DNA from: Lachnospiraceae bacterium
GTDB taxonomy: Bacteria > Bacillota > Clostridia > Lachnospirales > Lachnospiraceae
Assembly: GCA_030524525.1 (NCBI GenBank)
Contig: JAUNGI010000015.1
Span: 1-48,208, forward strand
Direction: 5' to 3'
DNA length: 48,208 bases
Part shown: piece after piece, positions 1 through 48,208 of the stretch
Position numbering within the stretch: the stretch's first letter is position 1
Layout of the letters: each line of letters opens with the position of its first letter
The notes under the pieces: model-generated
Told to the model about the DNA's origin: nothing
What the model saw: the letters and a program-made list of their open reading frames with translations, nothing else
The model's database searches: none
Program-made: the position numbers and the translations under genes

Positions 1-60
1 AACAAAAAACGCTCCGCGGGGATCGCACTGCGGCGGAGAGGAACTGTGTCGCTGGGGCGG
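1..60 (+). repeat. Multi-hairpin intergenic repeat, partial copy at window start
   Basis: The first 60 bases match the middle of the repeat seen complete at 39012-39138 (GCTCCGC, GGGATCGCACTGCGGCGGAG, GGAAC, GTGTCGCT). The left hairpin lies outside the window and the right hairpins are lost after about base 60. The first 28 bases equal the last 28 of the window because both lie in copies of this repeat. No T-box is visible between here and glyQS. Confidence 0.8.
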
Positions 61-1552: not shown

Positions 1553-1581
1553 AAAATTCCGGAATCTTTCCGGAATTTTTT
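1553..1581 (+). terminator. Rho-independent terminator after glyQS
   Basis: A 12-bp stem (AAAATTCCGGAA paired with TTCCGGAATTTT) with a three-base loop is followed by a T run. It lies 37 bases after the glyQS stop. Confidence 0.9.
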
Positions 1582-1582
1582 G

Positions 1583-1626
1583 TTTCATAGAGAAGTGCGT
1601 CCTATGAAACAAAAACGCTCCGTGGG
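1583..1626 (+). repeat. Degenerate relic of the multi-hairpin repeat
   Basis: The arms TTTCATAG (1583-1590) and CTATGAAA (1602-1609) form a hairpin, followed by CAAAAACGCTCCGTGGGGATCG. Other copies have the arms TTCTATAGGAAAC/GTTTCCTATAGAA in the same place, followed by the same A-rich linker and GCTCCGCGGGGATCG. Base identity has drifted but pairing is kept. The right-hand hairpins of the element are absent. Confidence 0.6.
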
Positions 1627-1687
1627 GATCGCTGTTCTTTCTTTGCGAAAAGAAGCGGGGAATTAAGCTTGAAAAAAGAAAATGACA

Positions 1688-38974: not shown

Positions 38975-39011
38975 GGGAGACCGGTCAGGAATGACCGGTC
39001 TCCCTATTTTA
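38975..39011 (+). terminator. Rho-independent terminator of the opp operon
   Basis: A perfect 13-bp stem (GGGAGACCGGTCA with TGACCGGTCTCCC) and a GGAA loop are followed by TATTTTAT. Confidence 0.92.
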
Positions 39012-39138
39012 TCTATAGGAAACTGCGTTCCCTATAGAACAAAAACGCTCCGCAGGGATCGCACTGCGGCGGAGAGGAACCGTGTCGCTGGAGCGACCCG
39101 CCGCAGGCGGAGAATCTCGAAAGCGAGATTCTTTGTTT
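39012..39138 (+). repeat. Multi-hairpin intergenic repeat, complete copy
   Basis: Five hairpins follow one another: TCTATAGG/CCTATAGA (39012-39038), CTCCGC/GCGGAG (39048-39074), GTCGCT/AGCGAC (39084-39097), CCGCC/GGCGG (39098-39110) and GAATCTCG/CGAGATTC (39112-39131). The two complete copies at 41384 and 42220 are in the opposite orientation and have different loops (for example CT in place of GG, and a changed tetraloop in the last hairpin) but the same stems. Confidence 0.88.
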
Positions 39139-39140
39139 TT

Positions 39141-39293
39141 ATGACGACGGAACGGCGCTGTATTACCGAAAGGGGGAGACGGAGCGCCTTGTGGAAACCG
39201 CTCTGCTGCAAAGCGTTTGTCAGGGCAGGGAAGGAATTGCGTACCTGACTGCAGCGGATGAGAAGGAGAGCGAGCCTTCGCCGGAGGACGGGA
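39141..39293 (+). pseudogene. 153-bp duplicated fragment of the lipoprotein gene at 40394-41341
   Basis: It matches 40884-41036 over 153 bases without gaps, with about five substitutions. It corresponds to the part of the lipoprotein from YDDGTALYY to EPSPEDG but has no start, signal peptide or end. It begins right after the multi-hairpin repeat and stops before the promoter of the peptidase-like pseudogene. Confidence 0.85.
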
Positions 39294-39311
39294 CAAATAT
39301 TTCTATCAGGC

Positions 39312-39343
39312 TTGACAATTCGAAATGAAGGGAGTAGTATAAT
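39312..39343 (+). promoter_or_regulatory. Promoter of the peptidase-like pseudogene
   Basis: TTGACA (39312-39317) with either TAGTAT at a 17-base spacing (39335-39340) or a perfect TATAAT at a 20-base spacing (39338-39343). Confidence 0.6.
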
Positions 39344-39362
39344 TGCCCGAGGCGGTATTATA

Positions 39363-40381
39363 ATGAGCAAAAAGTATGAGTGGCTTGTGGTTATCTTTCT
39401 CTTAGTTTTCTTTTCAAAGGCGAGCTTGGCGCAAGCCGAGGAAGAAGAGTGTGAAAATCCGGCAAAATGGTTTTCGTGCTTGGAAAATATAGTGGATTTT
39501 ACGGATGAATATGATACATATTCTTTGGAGCTGCCGGACGGAACGGTTTCGGCAAAGCTTTTTCAATTTTATGACGGGGCTGTTCCTGTATCCTATGTTG
39601 TGGTAAGTAATGAAATCAGTAATCGTCCGGAAATTATCGAATTTGGAGAAGGGTATGCGCAAAGTATTTTGGGCATTTCGGAGGCATTAGAGATTTCCCC
39701 AGAAAAAAGTCGGTTGCTTTATTTGGGAAACTTGCAATATATTCTTGAATATCAGGATGAATATTATAAAATTGAAGATGGGGAAATAATACAGATGTCG
39801 CGTCTGCCGGAAATTTCCGACGAAGTTGAAGATAATTATTACAATGAGGGCGAAAGCTTAACATGGTCAGATGTTTATAAGCGCGAAGTTGGTGGGTATG
39901 CAGTTCAACGGCAGCGTATAATTTGACTGTTTATTGGTATCATCAGTGATATGATAATTTTAACTTAACAACCAGAGCAAGATAGAATGCGCTTTTCAAT
40001 GCATATTATAATAGACTTGGAAAAAGCGCTGTAATTAAAAATTGTCAATACGCATACAAGAATGTTTTTTATGAGTATAACTATTACTGTACATCGAAGT
40101 ATATTGAAGACGCATCTTGGAAGGAAATAACGTCTGCTATTGACGACGGACCGGTACATGTACACCTTAGAGACTCGGAGATATATGGCAATCATGGTAC
40201 TGTTGGCATTGGCTATGTAAGCTTTATATTTCCTTCTGGCTGGACGAGTCGATATATTATTTTGATTGACGGTTGGACGGTTGGTTCACGATATGTAAAC
40301 TATACCCTTGGAATTGATAGTATAGATATTACGATTGTCAAGCCGGTAAAAGCACATCCGGGAATCAAACCTGCAATATAA
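39363..40381 (+). pseudogene. Secreted C39-like cysteine peptidase gene, frameshifted at the catalytic Cys
   Basis: An intact first part (39363-39926) gives a signal peptide (WLVVIFLLVFFSKASLAQA) and a 170-residue propeptide-like region. At 39897-39899 the frame slips by one base. In the next frame the sequence continues as CSSTAAYNLTVYWYHQ, which fits the catalytic Cys block of C39-like/papain-like peptidases (usual form C-x-PTAAxNLxxYW), then meets stops at 39947 and 39983. It goes on as an open frame to 40381 with the catalytic-His-like GNHGTVGIGY and the Asp in LIDGW. Restoring one T before 39899 would read Tyr-Cys. The gene is much AT-richer than its surroundings, which suggests transfer. 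A first-part product may still be made. Confidence 0.75.
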
Positions 40382-40393
40382 ACGGAGGTCACT

Positions 40394-41341
40394 ATGAAAA
40401 AAATGCTATTCCTAATTATATTTTTCTGCACTTGTTTTCTGGCTGCCTGCTCCTCCGAACGGGAGGAGGGCGGTCCCTCCGACGAGACGGACGCCGAGAT
40501 TGCTTCGCAGGGCGATTACGTCTATTATATATCGCGCAAAGGCTTTCTGTGCTGTTTTACCCTTTCGAACGGCGTATCGCAGGTCGTTTCCGAAACGACG
40601 GGAAGCGTTCGGCAAACGCCATGGGGCTGTCTCTTCATACAGGGGCGGCAGATCGGACGGCTGGAAGACGGAACGCTTAGATCGTGGCTTACCCTGCCGG
40701 AGGGAACAGTATTTGCCGCCGCCACGGAGGACGGCTGCTACTCCATAAAGGAACGGAAGGAAGAGGATGGGGCGGAGGTCTATTATACGACAGAGGGAGC
40801 GGAGCGCCTTGTAACGGTGCTGGACTTGCCGCAGGAGAATGTCTCGCTGCTTCGGCTATATCCCGCAGGGGAAGGCTTTTATTATGACGACGGAACGGCG
40901 CTGTATTACCGAAGGGGGGAGACGGAGCGCCTTGTGGAAACCGCTCTGCTGCAAAGCGTTTGTCAGGGCAGGGAAGGAATTGCCTACCTGACTGCGGCGG
41001 ATGATAGGGAGAGCGAGCCTTCGCCGGAGGACGGGATGGACGCGCGCGTCTGCAGTCTGCATTATGTGTCGCCGAACGGTTCCGAGGTGCTTTCGGAGCA
41101 GCTTTCCGCAGAGGGGCTTTTCTATGCGGAAGGACGGTTTGTGACCGTCGGCGCAAGGGCGTACGGCTTTTCGGAGGAGCAGCCGCAGGCGGAGCTTTTG
41201 ACGCTGACAAGGGAACGCAGCTATACGGTTTCCAAGAGCTGCATGAATGAGAAAGGACTGGTTTCCCGGATCGCCTATGAGGATCGTTTCTGTTATCAGA
41301 GCGACACGCAGGAGCGTGTTTATGATTTTTCGGGGGAATAA
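40394..41341 (+). CDS. Uncharacterised lipoprotein
   Basis: The 315-residue protein has a lipoprotein signal (LFLIIFFCTCFLAAC) and then mostly short beta-strand-like stretches with recurring aromatic and Gly turns (GDYVYYISRKGFLCC, GEGFYYDDGTALYY, SEVLSEQLSAEGLFYAEGRF), suggestive of a propeller or solenoid similar to DUF5050-type proteins. No catalytic motif is visible and the function is unknown. It starts 12 bases after the peptidase pseudogene with a GGAGG site. A 153-bp piece of it is duplicated 1.7 kb upstream. It is followed by an inverted copy of the multi-hairpin repeat. Confidence 0.75.
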   Translation: MKKMLFLIIFFCTCFLAACSSEREEGGPSDETDAEIASQGDYVYYISRKGFLCCFTLSNGVSQVVSETTGSVRQTPWGCLFIQGRQIGRLEDGTLRSWLTLPEGTVFAAATEDGCYSIKERKEEDGAEVYYTTEGAERLVTVLDLPQENVSLLRLYPAGEGFYYDDGTALYYRRGETERLVETALLQSVCQGREGIAYLTAADDRESEPSPEDGMDARVCSLHYVSPNGSEVLSEQLSAEGLFYAEGRFVTVGARAYGFSEEQPQAELLTLTRERSYTVSKSCMNEKGLVSRIAYEDRFCYQSDTQERVYDFSGE

Positions 41342-41383
41342 CAAAGAATCCCCCAGATCGTTTTAGTTGCTTTTCCTATGAAA

Positions 41384-41513
41384 GAACAAAGAATCTCGCT
41401 TGCGAGATTCTCCGCCTGCGGCGGGTCGCTCTAGCGACACAGTTCCTCTCCGCCGCAGTGCGATCCCTGCGGAGCTTTTTTTTATTCTATAGGAAACGCA
41501 GTTTCCTATAGAA
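41384..41513 (-). repeat. Multi-hairpin intergenic repeat, complete inverted copy
   Basis: It is the reverse complement of the 39012-39138 element, with the same five stems. Its terminal hairpin is perfect over 13 bp (TTCTATAGGAAAC/GTTTCCTATAGAA with a GCA loop, 41485-41513). From 41384 it is identical to the copy at 42220 for about 92 bases. It sits between two convergent genes. Confidence 0.9.
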
Positions 41514-41517
41514 TAAA

Positions 41518-41560
41518 AAGAGTGCCCTCAAAGCCTTGCAACAGCTTTTGGGGCACTCTT
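41518..41560 (-). terminator. Terminator of the ferredoxin gene
   Basis: The 10-bp stem AAGAGTGCCC/GGGCACTCTT contains an inner AAAGC/GCTTT stem. On the minus strand it is followed by a T-rich stretch (the A run at 41515-41519). It lies just beyond the ferredoxin stop. Confidence 0.8.
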
Positions 41561-41592
41561 GGACTTTCCGATTCAGAAAGCCATGGCTGCGA

Positions 41593-41763
41593 TTACTCCT
41601 CGTGGATCGCGCCCATCGGGCAGGTACCTGCGCAGGCGCCGCATTCCAGACATGCGTCTGCATTGATTTCATACTTGTCGTCGCCCTCTGCGATTGCGGA
41701 AACCGGACATCCGTCCGCGCAAGCGCCGCAGCTTACACATTCATCGCTGATAACATATGCCAT
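41593..41763 (-). CDS. 2[4Fe-4S] clostridial-type ferredoxin
   Basis: The 56-residue protein MAYVISDEC... has two perfect CxxCxxCxxxCP motifs (CVSCGACADGCPVSAI and CLECGACAGTCPMGAI), which bind two [4Fe-4S] clusters. It is the standard low-potential electron carrier of clostridial metabolism, linked for instance to pyruvate oxidation and hydrogenase. On the minus strand AAGGAGG lies eight bases before the ATG at 41763 and only two before an in-frame ATG at 41769, so 41763 is taken. It is transcribed away from the DUF1858 gene, with a promoter at 41834-41862. Confidence 0.97.
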   Translation of the reverse strand: MAYVISDECVSCGACADGCPVSAIAEGDDKYEINADACLECGACAGTCPMGAIHEE

Positions 41764-41833
41764 GATCATATCCTCCTTATGATTGCGCAAGATTTTGTCG
41801 GGACAAAGTTCCGTCTGTCTCCGACCTGCCTCC

Positions 41834-41862
41834 ATTGTACTTCATCTTCGTTTAGAAAACAA
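41834..41862 (-). promoter_or_regulatory. Promoter of the ferredoxin gene
   Basis: On the minus strand, TTGTTT (41862-41857), a 17-base spacer and TACAAT (41839-41834). Confidence 0.7.
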
Positions 41863-41893
41863 GGTTAATTTTTGGAATTCGTGCGATTACGGC

Positions 41894-41922
41894 TTGACGT
41901 TCTCCTGCCGCGCCGATATAAT
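41894..41922 (+). promoter_or_regulatory. Promoter of the DUF1858 gene
   Basis: TTGACG (41894-41899), a 17-base spacer and a perfect TATAAT (41917-41922). It diverges from the ferredoxin promoter, with 31 bases between the two -35 boxes. Confidence 0.85.
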
Positions 41923-41977
41923 ACCAGTGCAATGTGTTTTTTCTTATTGCAGACAGAGGAAAATGGAGGTTTCTTTT

Positions 41978-42175
41978 ATGGTAACGAAAGACATGACGAT
42001 TGGCGAAATTCTTCGCATGGATATGGATGTGGCTCCGATTTTGATGGACGCCGGAATGCATTGCCTCGGCTGTCCCTCCGCACAGGGCGAGTCGCTGGAG
42101 ATGGCGGCAATGGTTCACGGAATTGATTCGGACGAGCTGATCCAGAAGATCAACGATTTTCTTGCGGCAAAATAG
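41978..42175 (+). CDS. DUF1858 small protein with CxxC-type cysteines
   Basis: The 65-residue protein fits the DUF1858 / hybrid-cluster-associated disulphide family: [20 protein letters not shown] followed by [19 protein letters not shown], with the CxxCP motif after a Gly-Met, and a C-terminal helix ([16 protein letters not shown]). Family members are thought to act in redox or metal-cluster chemistry, but their function is unproven. TGGAGG eight bases before the ATG sets the start; in-frame starts further upstream overlap the promoter. It is divergent from the ferredoxin gene. Confidence 0.9.
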
Positions 42176-42219
42176 AGCGGGACGGCGCATCCTAAAAGGA
42201 GCGGGTTCGCGTTCGAAAA

Positions 42220-42349
42220 GAACAAAGAATCTCGCTTGCGAGATTCTCCGCCTGCGGCGGGTCGCTCTAGCGACACAGTTCCTCTCCGCCGCAGTGCGAT
42301 CCCTGCGGAGCGTTTTTTTATTCTATAGGAAACGCAGTTTCCTGTAGAA
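42220..42349 (-). repeat. Multi-hairpin intergenic repeat, second complete inverted copy
   Basis: It has the same orientation and nearly the same sequence as the copy at 41384-41513. Its terminal hairpin has one change (CCTGTAGAA) that keeps pairing through a G-U pair. With the 41384 copy it brackets the ferredoxin/DUF1858 pair as direct repeats. Confidence 0.9.
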
Positions 42350-42352
42350 CAA

Positions 42353-42385
42353 AAAAACCGGAAGTCCTTGGGGCTTCCGGTTTTT
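42353..42385. terminator. Bidirectional terminator at the mecA 3' end
   Basis: A perfect 12-bp stem (AAAAACCGGAAG with CTTCCGGTTTTT) has A and T runs on either side, so it can end both the minus-strand mecA message and plus-strand transcripts. Confidence 0.88.
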
Positions 42386-48110: not shown

Positions 48111-48152
48111 AAGAGTATCCGAGCTGGAAACAGAGACGGGTACTCTTTTTTT
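48111..48152 (+). terminator. Rho-independent terminator after the MgsA-like gene
   Basis: AAGAGTATCCG pairs with CGGGTACTCTT across a 15-base loop, with a T run to 48152. The next multi-hairpin repeat begins at 48154. Confidence 0.88.
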
Positions 48153-48153
48153 G

Positions 48154-48208
48154 TTCTATAGGAAACTGTGTTTCCTATAGAACAAAAAACGCTCCGCGGG
48201 GATCGCAC
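48154..48208 (+). repeat. Multi-hairpin intergenic repeat, cut by the window end
   Basis: A perfect 13-bp hairpin (TTCTATAGGAAAC at 48154-48166, GTTTCCTATAGAA at 48170-48182, TGT loop) leads into the A-rich linker and GCTCCGCGGGGATCGCAC. Its last 28 bases equal the first 28 of the window. Confidence 0.88.

Follow-up and report, generated by a model that had tools for sequence, protein, structure and literature searches.

Insertion at intrinsic transcription terminators is known for group IIC introns (PMC4424553). The BOX, RUP and SPRITE repeats of Streptococcus pneumoniae are small, intergenic and folded, occur in about 100 copies with modular variants and, in the case of SPRITE, resemble terminators (PMC3049150). 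The REP sequences, which are tagged by GTAG/CGTC and associated with RAYT, are extragenic palindromes of 20-40 bp and depend on structure. Elements derived from IS200/IS605 (PATE type) have hairpins near both ends, insert in one orientation beside a short target and leave no target duplication. Here, we describe a repeat of 127-145 nt from the genome of a Lachnospiraceae bacterium (2,648,477 bases in 62 contigs, 97% complete; G000 hereafter). The stretch analysed, called the window, is the entire contig JAUNGI010000015.1 (C39 of G000; 48,208 nt), which carries complete and partial copies. The repeat is probably a non-autonomous, structure-dependent mobile element, which targets the 3' end of a terminator T-tract in one orientation and rebuilds this target.

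The defining features that were tested for introns, REPs and BOX-type MITEs (miniature inverted-repeat transposable elements) are absent from the repeat, and its targeting resembles that of group IIC introns. Like these introns it lies at intrinsic terminators, but it is very short for an intron, matches no Rfam intron catalytic domain and has no linked reverse transcriptase. It shares small size, intergenic location, fold, a copy number of about 100, modular variants and terminator-like character with BOX, RUP and SPRITE. However, BOX and RUP make target duplications, whereas none was detected in 56 copies of the repeat, and sequence, host and insertion rule differ as well. Like REPs it is an extragenic, structure-dependent palindromic sequence, but it is much longer, shows no tag at the base of its first palindrome (HP1) in the arm listing, and G000 lacks a match to Y1 transposase. 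In contrast to the PATE type, a Y1 match is missing in 12 of 31 high-copy genomes, defined by at least 10 scored matches and a best E<1e-12. No Rfam 15 family scored above its gathering cut-off on the element stretches searched (one scan gave below-cut-off matches only), and no description of the family was found in the open-access PMC literature, subscription papers and supplements being outside the scope; the original prediction had not recognised a described family either. A survey of microbiome RNAs reports 250 palindromic candidates, 230 of which are terminator-like (PMC8040213), and fragments of the repeat may be among them without a name.

Copy number, fold and paired substitutions

When at most 3 mismatches are allowed, a 23-nt core matches G000 109 times, and the reversed-pattern control gives 0. 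BLAST with the 127-bp copy gives 75 matches, some of which are the palindrome matched on the reverse strand. A covariance model finds at least 140 matches (150 of 1896 candidates scored), including truncated copies and some reverse-strand palindrome matches. About 100 copies thus exist in G000 beyond those of the window, and the multicopy, intergenic family of REP/BOX/MITE-like character that had been proposed from the window, placed just after terminators, is borne out. At least 13 of the 124 contig ends in G000 have a copy no more than about 150 nt away (one end each of C5, C8, C9, C20, C22, C25 and C41, both ends of C30, C31 and C39), and the repeat seems to break the assembly.

The three complete copies of the window fold better than their dinucleotide shuffles (z -5.0, -6.7 and -6.2; 0 of 200 shuffles as good for each). 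From 5' to 3', the order is host terminator hairpin, T-tract, HP1, a small hairpin with TCC, a 9-bp stem, a terminal hairpin and TTTGTTC. One side of HP1 prolongs the host T-tract and the other ends in an A-tract. The 9-bp stem encloses a purine-rich bulge (AGAGGAA in G000) and an apical hairpin. After TTTGTT, the next letter in G000 is C in 22 of 24 copies, followed by T in 17 of 24. The predicted fold is one of four domains, namely HP1, the small TCC hairpin, the 9-bp stem domain and the terminal hairpin. The five successive hairpins of the original prediction are not the best structure, since the predicted fold, the pair counts and an arm-swap test favour four domains; the fourth local hairpin (CCGCC-GCA-GGCGG) competes with the 9-bp stem.

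Loops vary among copies and the stems are still paired, as had been noticed in the window. In a MAFFT alignment of 12 copies (A3), double changes occur in 10 of 33 pairs and 27 cells, against 8.8 cells when shuffled (0 of 500 shuffles as many) and 0-2 in slid controls; pair types do not exceed the shuffled number (17 vs 16.5). A second alignment (A5) holds 42 model-aligned copies from 41 loci and at least 29 genera. In A5, whose pair counts lean towards the covariance model because the alignment was fitted to it, 97.7% of 1303 cells are paired, and double changes are seen in 23 of 32 pairs (12.0 shuffled) and 213 cells (56.7 shuffled; 0 of 500 shuffles as many; slid controls, 9-25 cells). The 9-bp stem lies outside the model, and its own arms reach 7.07 against 5.40 for swapped arms (maximum of 500 swaps, 6.05), with at least 7 pairs in a row in 22 of 42 copies. 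Paired substitutions therefore exceed both shuffles and slid controls, and all lineages examined retain the fold. Neither of the two outcomes named as refuting the original prediction, a lack of further copies or of paired substitutions, was seen.

If RNA pairing alone were under selection, more G-U pairs would be expected than the 15 among about 1273 paired cells of A5. Their scarcity suggests DNA-level pairing or templated copying behind the paired changes, rather than slow RNA compensation. Selection on the fold and mobility had been offered as alternatives. The fold is conserved despite sequence change and mobility is supported as well, so the two need not be opposed.

Intrinsic terminators as the candidate target

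A parser for HP1-bearing copies gave 41 in the window and 33 G000 loci, 23 in loci of a sister species, Lachnoclostridium sp. UBA7482, and 51 in 64 loci of named relatives, all of these being lower bounds rather than every copy. Distal tandem copies (9 in G000, 1 among the named relatives) were excluded, as were 4 copies of the sister species that lack a T-run or contain N. A hairpin with a folding free energy (dG) of -6 or lower immediately precedes the T-tract in 28 of 32 copies of G000, 17 of 19 of UBA7482 and 44 of 50 of the named relatives, compared with 138/400, 37/146 and 91/400 control T-tracts in the respective sets. At dG≤-10, the counts are 26 of 32 first-in-line copies, 17 of 19 and 41 of 50, and the controls in the named loci are 39 of 203 intergenic T6 runs and 38 of 541 T6 runs inside called open reading frames (ORFs). 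Among the 42 model-aligned copies, 41 were scorable and 36 have such a hairpin at dG≤-6; two of the five weak ones are long-looped terminators by eye. The hairpins before copies at independent loci are unrelated to one another. The association is one-sided, and the intrinsic terminator is probably the insertion target, entered on one side and in one orientation.

A conventional MITE mobilised by a DDE transposase would also end up behind terminators if it inserted widely and persisted only at harmless sites. The repeat is small, non-coding, folded and multicopy as BOX and RUP are (PMC3049150), with modular variants in the sister family. This origin is unlikely, however, considering that hairpin-poor intergenic T6 runs are plentiful (164 of 203 above -10) and rarely used, that the ends of the element are not inverted repeats of each other, that the 56 copies without target duplication do not fit it, and that the stems keep changing yet stay paired.

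In the named relatives, 39 of 43 placed copies (8 at locus edges) lie 3' of a same-strand gene, at a median of 73 nt past the stop. The same naive ORF caller, which is unreliable in the GC-richer G000, puts only 20 of 35 copies there behind a same-strand gene (6 at edges). By eye, all five window copies that retain their left end come after the 3' end of a same-strand gene, and at locus L028 the upstream neighbours of the four copies are, in order, a MerR-type gene, a permease, an HTH gene and a hydrolase. Such positions would suit a cis-acting RNA of the 3' untranslated region, which backs up the terminator or stabilises the mRNA 3' end and was spread and retained as helpful to the host. The terminator-like right end points the same way, and so does the reverse strand, which reads as a terminator-like hairpin before the A-tract and as CCGCAG-loop-CTGCGG before T runs. 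Congeners G021 and G001 have one orthologous copy in common, which differs at 2 positions over about 125 nt, the 3.1 kb around it being 86% identical; old copies can therefore persist. Against this role, copies are near-identical within a genome, different between species and mostly not shared, G-U pairs are few, 98 of 200 family genomes have no match, and the G000 count is low, as far as its ORF caller can be trusted. We consider it improbable that such a function explains the family.

Besides the candidate target, the original prediction had missed the joining of the T-tract to the first palindrome, the terminator-like right end with its tandem copies, and the family-wide homologues.

Mobility, ends and distribution

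Mobility is supported by one orthologous interval in three congeners, which lies between a DUF1858-like and a mecA-like gene. In G000, a copy sits behind the mecA-like gene, on its terminator. In UBA7482, a copy of its own family sits behind the terminator of the opposite gene, in reverse orientation, and the congener G006 has neither copy in 77 nt. Presence, absence and independent insertion are thus found at the same interval, as is characteristic of a mobile element. Seven more loci (L265-L268, L270, L271 and L273) gave no model match, the homology of their interval to the mecA interval being unverified, and cross-BLAST of the fetched loci gave no filled/empty pair among the pairs listed.

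Tandem copies are joined at the terminator-like right end. The distal copy starts right behind the TTTGTTC of the preceding one, with TTCTATAGG or TTTCATAGG following at the junction, and several distal copies are cut on the 3' side, near query position 54-69. In 56 copies, repeated k-mers of 3-8 nt at both ends are not in excess over the permuted expectation. Since the element carries a terminator at its right end, every insertion would rebuild the target and leave the termination of the upstream gene intact, which would explain both tolerance and tandem arrays.

The two arms of HP1 match each other better within a copy than between copies. At positions 1-4, mismatches are 1 vs 24.5, 2 vs 13.2 and 4 vs 34.8 in the three sets; at positions 5-8, they are 13 vs 25.5 in G000 (p 0.0005) and 9 vs 26.1 in UBA7482 (0 of 2000). 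Where the T-tract has irregular letters (positions 6-10), the right arm mirrors them in 3 of 10 cases in G000, 6 of 11 in UBA7482, 0 of 4 in Butyrivibrio and 0 of 5 in other named relatives, and irregularities of the right arm only number 1, 4, 0 and 1. Mirroring is most frequent in the UBA7482 family, which has also diverged furthest (mean core identity 0.60 vs 0.85 and 0.89, the value of 0.60 being partly depressed by optional modules). We take HP1 to be a T-tract of the host adjoining an A-tract of the element, with one arm of the hairpin later copied from the other in some copies; alternatively, the mirrored arms could reflect selection for pairing. Correction of quasipalindromes by template switching is known in E. 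coli (PMC7202029) and would likewise turn imperfect HP1 arms perfect, although it is a mutation process and not an element.

In the proposed mechanism, mobilising machinery would act on an exposed single strand, either hairpin DNA at a fork or RNA, and would recognise the terminator hairpin together with the folded ends of the element. The A-tract in the right arm of HP1 may serve as the complement of the target T-tract, and template switching inside the hairpin after insertion could transfer irregular letters of the host T-tract to the opposite arm. If so, the element would account for a large share of the intergenic DNA, as yet without a name, of a dominant gut family and for the fragmentation of such assemblies, and it would have reached more than 100 copies without gene breakage, by selecting stop signals as its sites and supplying one itself. 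Through the target rule, the mover can be tested directly, the structure offers a model for annotating these repeats, and HP1 is a natural test of palindrome-arm matching by template switching.

Several observations weigh against the reading as a terminator-targeting mobile element. No hairpin even at dG≤-6 precedes 4 of 32 copies in G000, 2 of 19 in UBA7482 and 6 of 50 in the named relatives, and survival of harmless insertions alone could yield part of the association. At positions 5-8 of HP1, the named relatives show no significant matching (9 vs 10.6 mismatches, p 0.19), and two mismatches occur there in 9 of 9 distal tandem copies of G000; pairing of T-tract and A-tract is therefore not strictly required. 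No transposition was observed, and G000 is an assembly of 62 contigs. The mover was not found by searches for Y1 and RVT_1, IS110 and other transposase families not being searched. Y1 transposase (PF01797) has 0 matches in G000, the only RVT_1 protein of G000 has no intron RNA beside it, unlike five reverse transcriptase loci of other genomes, and neither Y1 nor RVT_1 is associated with the element across 200 genomes (Fisher p 0.10-0.72).

A resident Y1 transposase or reverse transcriptase was accordingly rejected as the mover, both being unassociated across these genomes and absent or unsuitable in G000. Among the 31 high-copy genomes, 4 lack both Y1 and RVT_1, and 21 loci around Y1 or reverse transcriptase genes contain no element match. 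A SINE-like RNA moved at terminators by a group IIC-type or other reverse transcriptase would fit the site preference of these introns (PMC4424553), the frequent 3' cuts of distal copies and the lack of target duplication. Nevertheless, the elements match no intron family, 7 of the 31 high-copy genomes have no RVT_1 match, and the G000 protein (403 aa, C48) is not recognisably group II, its score of 85.7 falling short of the group II reverse transcriptase cut-off of 300, so that a retroelement seems quite unlikely. This protein (L255, 1306-2517) gives weak group II, Drt and retron matches. An autonomous copy between closely spaced copies was also rejected: the neighbour proteins at L028 and L038 are ordinary (regulators, permease, hydrolase). 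One resolvase is among them (L028, 1039-1815), and no transposase of the element's own was found at these two loci, a genome-wide search not being made. An IS110-like CT core and an IS91-like GTTC target were considered from sequence and dropped, as the letters differ between species.

Against 20 sampled congeners, the 127-bp copy gives three short matches, all in UBA7482. A diverged family of its own (83 BLAST matches) is present in this species; its extra module measures about 40 nt and is sometimes doubled. At its loci L088, L089 and L102, the optional module stands in tandem, like boxB of BOX repeats. An exact pattern occurs in 71 stretches of GTDB genomes, many of them Butyrivibrio, with further hosts in Acetivibrio ethanolgignens, Eisenbergiella porci, Lachnospira, Mediterraneibacter, Hungatella, Cuneatibacter and others. 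Covariance model R1 matches 11 of 22 congeners at E≤0.001 and, with 16 candidates scored per genome, 102 of 200 family genomes (199 genera) at E≤1e-4, the best E being <1e-9 in 78 and weaker in 24.

Class-wide, R1 matches 24 of 291 genomes, 6 within the family and 18 outside, the latter mostly at 35-45 bits with one at 61. Of six loci fetched from outside the family, five were read at the match: all carry an HP1-like palindrome, ATAGGAA and T/A tracts, two lie directly behind a terminator and three have a core of similar plan by eye. Since the model favours such palindromes, kinship across the class beyond Lachnospiraceae is only suggestive. At about 1500-1640 of L287, from a genome of another family, a near-perfect palindrome with an ATAGGAA tip and T/A tracts has no terminator hairpin visible before it. 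It is a tentative idea, and rather doubtful, that the repeat represents a new class of guide-assisted terminator-homing element. Such an element, about 130 nt of folded RNA or single-stranded DNA, would pair its A-tract with any terminator T-tract, be moved by unknown or general host machinery, be neutral and self-renewing on insertion thanks to its own terminator, and be widespread across Clostridia under different sequences.

The strict pattern has 0 matches in the viral contig collection and the HP1 pattern occurs in 1 contig. Plasmids gave one record with two places (Roseburia sp. 831b) and none with the Butyrivibrio form, and 16 unannotated faecal 'Bacteriophage sp.' records match. Viruses or plasmids were rejected as the carrier. 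On the Roseburia plasmid (L290, 2077-2424), an annotated hypothetical protein overlaps the 3' part of the element and is probably a spurious ORF.

Copies in the window

Sequence inspection found all copies that had been claimed in the window, at 39012-39138 (+), 41384-41513 (-) and 42220-42349 (-), as well as the partial ends and the relic, which spans 1587-1632 or, as in Table 1, starts at 1583. Because the window is a whole contig, the partial copies at its two ends are contig breaks inside copies.

Table 1. Copies of the repeat and adjoining host terminators in the window
Feature	Position	Strand	Remark
Copy interrupted by contig left end, 3' side also truncated	1..59	+	
Host terminator 3' of glycyl-tRNA synthetase-like gene	1555..1577	+	sequence, gene call
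3'-truncated copy (relic), adjoining this terminator	1583..1632	+	
Host intrinsic terminator hairpin before copy 1	38975..39004	+	13 pairs
Host T-tract extending copy 1 HP1 leftwards	39005-39011	+	imperfect in copy 1
Complete copy 1	39012..39138	+	fold z -5.0
Copy 1 HP1 palindrome, TCTATAGGAAAC TGC GTTCCCTATAGA, with A-tract	39012..39045	+	
Copy 1 small hairpin, CGC-TCC-GC(A)	39046..39054	+	predicted fold, sequence, by eye
Copy 1 9-bp stem (39064-39072 / 39098-39106) around bulge AGAGGAACC and apical hairpin (39084-39097)	39064..39106	+	
Copy 1 terminal hairpin, AGAATCTCG-AAAG-CGAGATTCT, then TTGTT	39111..39137	+	terminator-like right end
Complete copy 2 with T-tract, behind terminator of ferredoxin-like gene	41384..41521	-	
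Host terminator hairpin of ferredoxin-like gene, GAGTGCCC...GGGCACTC	41520..41558	-	sequence
Complete copy 3 with T-tract, behind mecA-like gene, convergent with small + strand gene	42220..42357	-	
Host terminator hairpin of mecA-like gene, ACCGGAAG...CTTCCGGT	42357..42382	-	sequence
Host terminator stem preceding right-end copy	48112..48146	+	sequence
Copy interrupted by contig right end	48155..48208	+	

Part of the gene at 40394-41341, 158 nt long, occurs a second time at 96% identity (39136-39293 and 40879-41036). The duplicated piece lies directly 3' of the right end of copy 1, with the junction at a T run.

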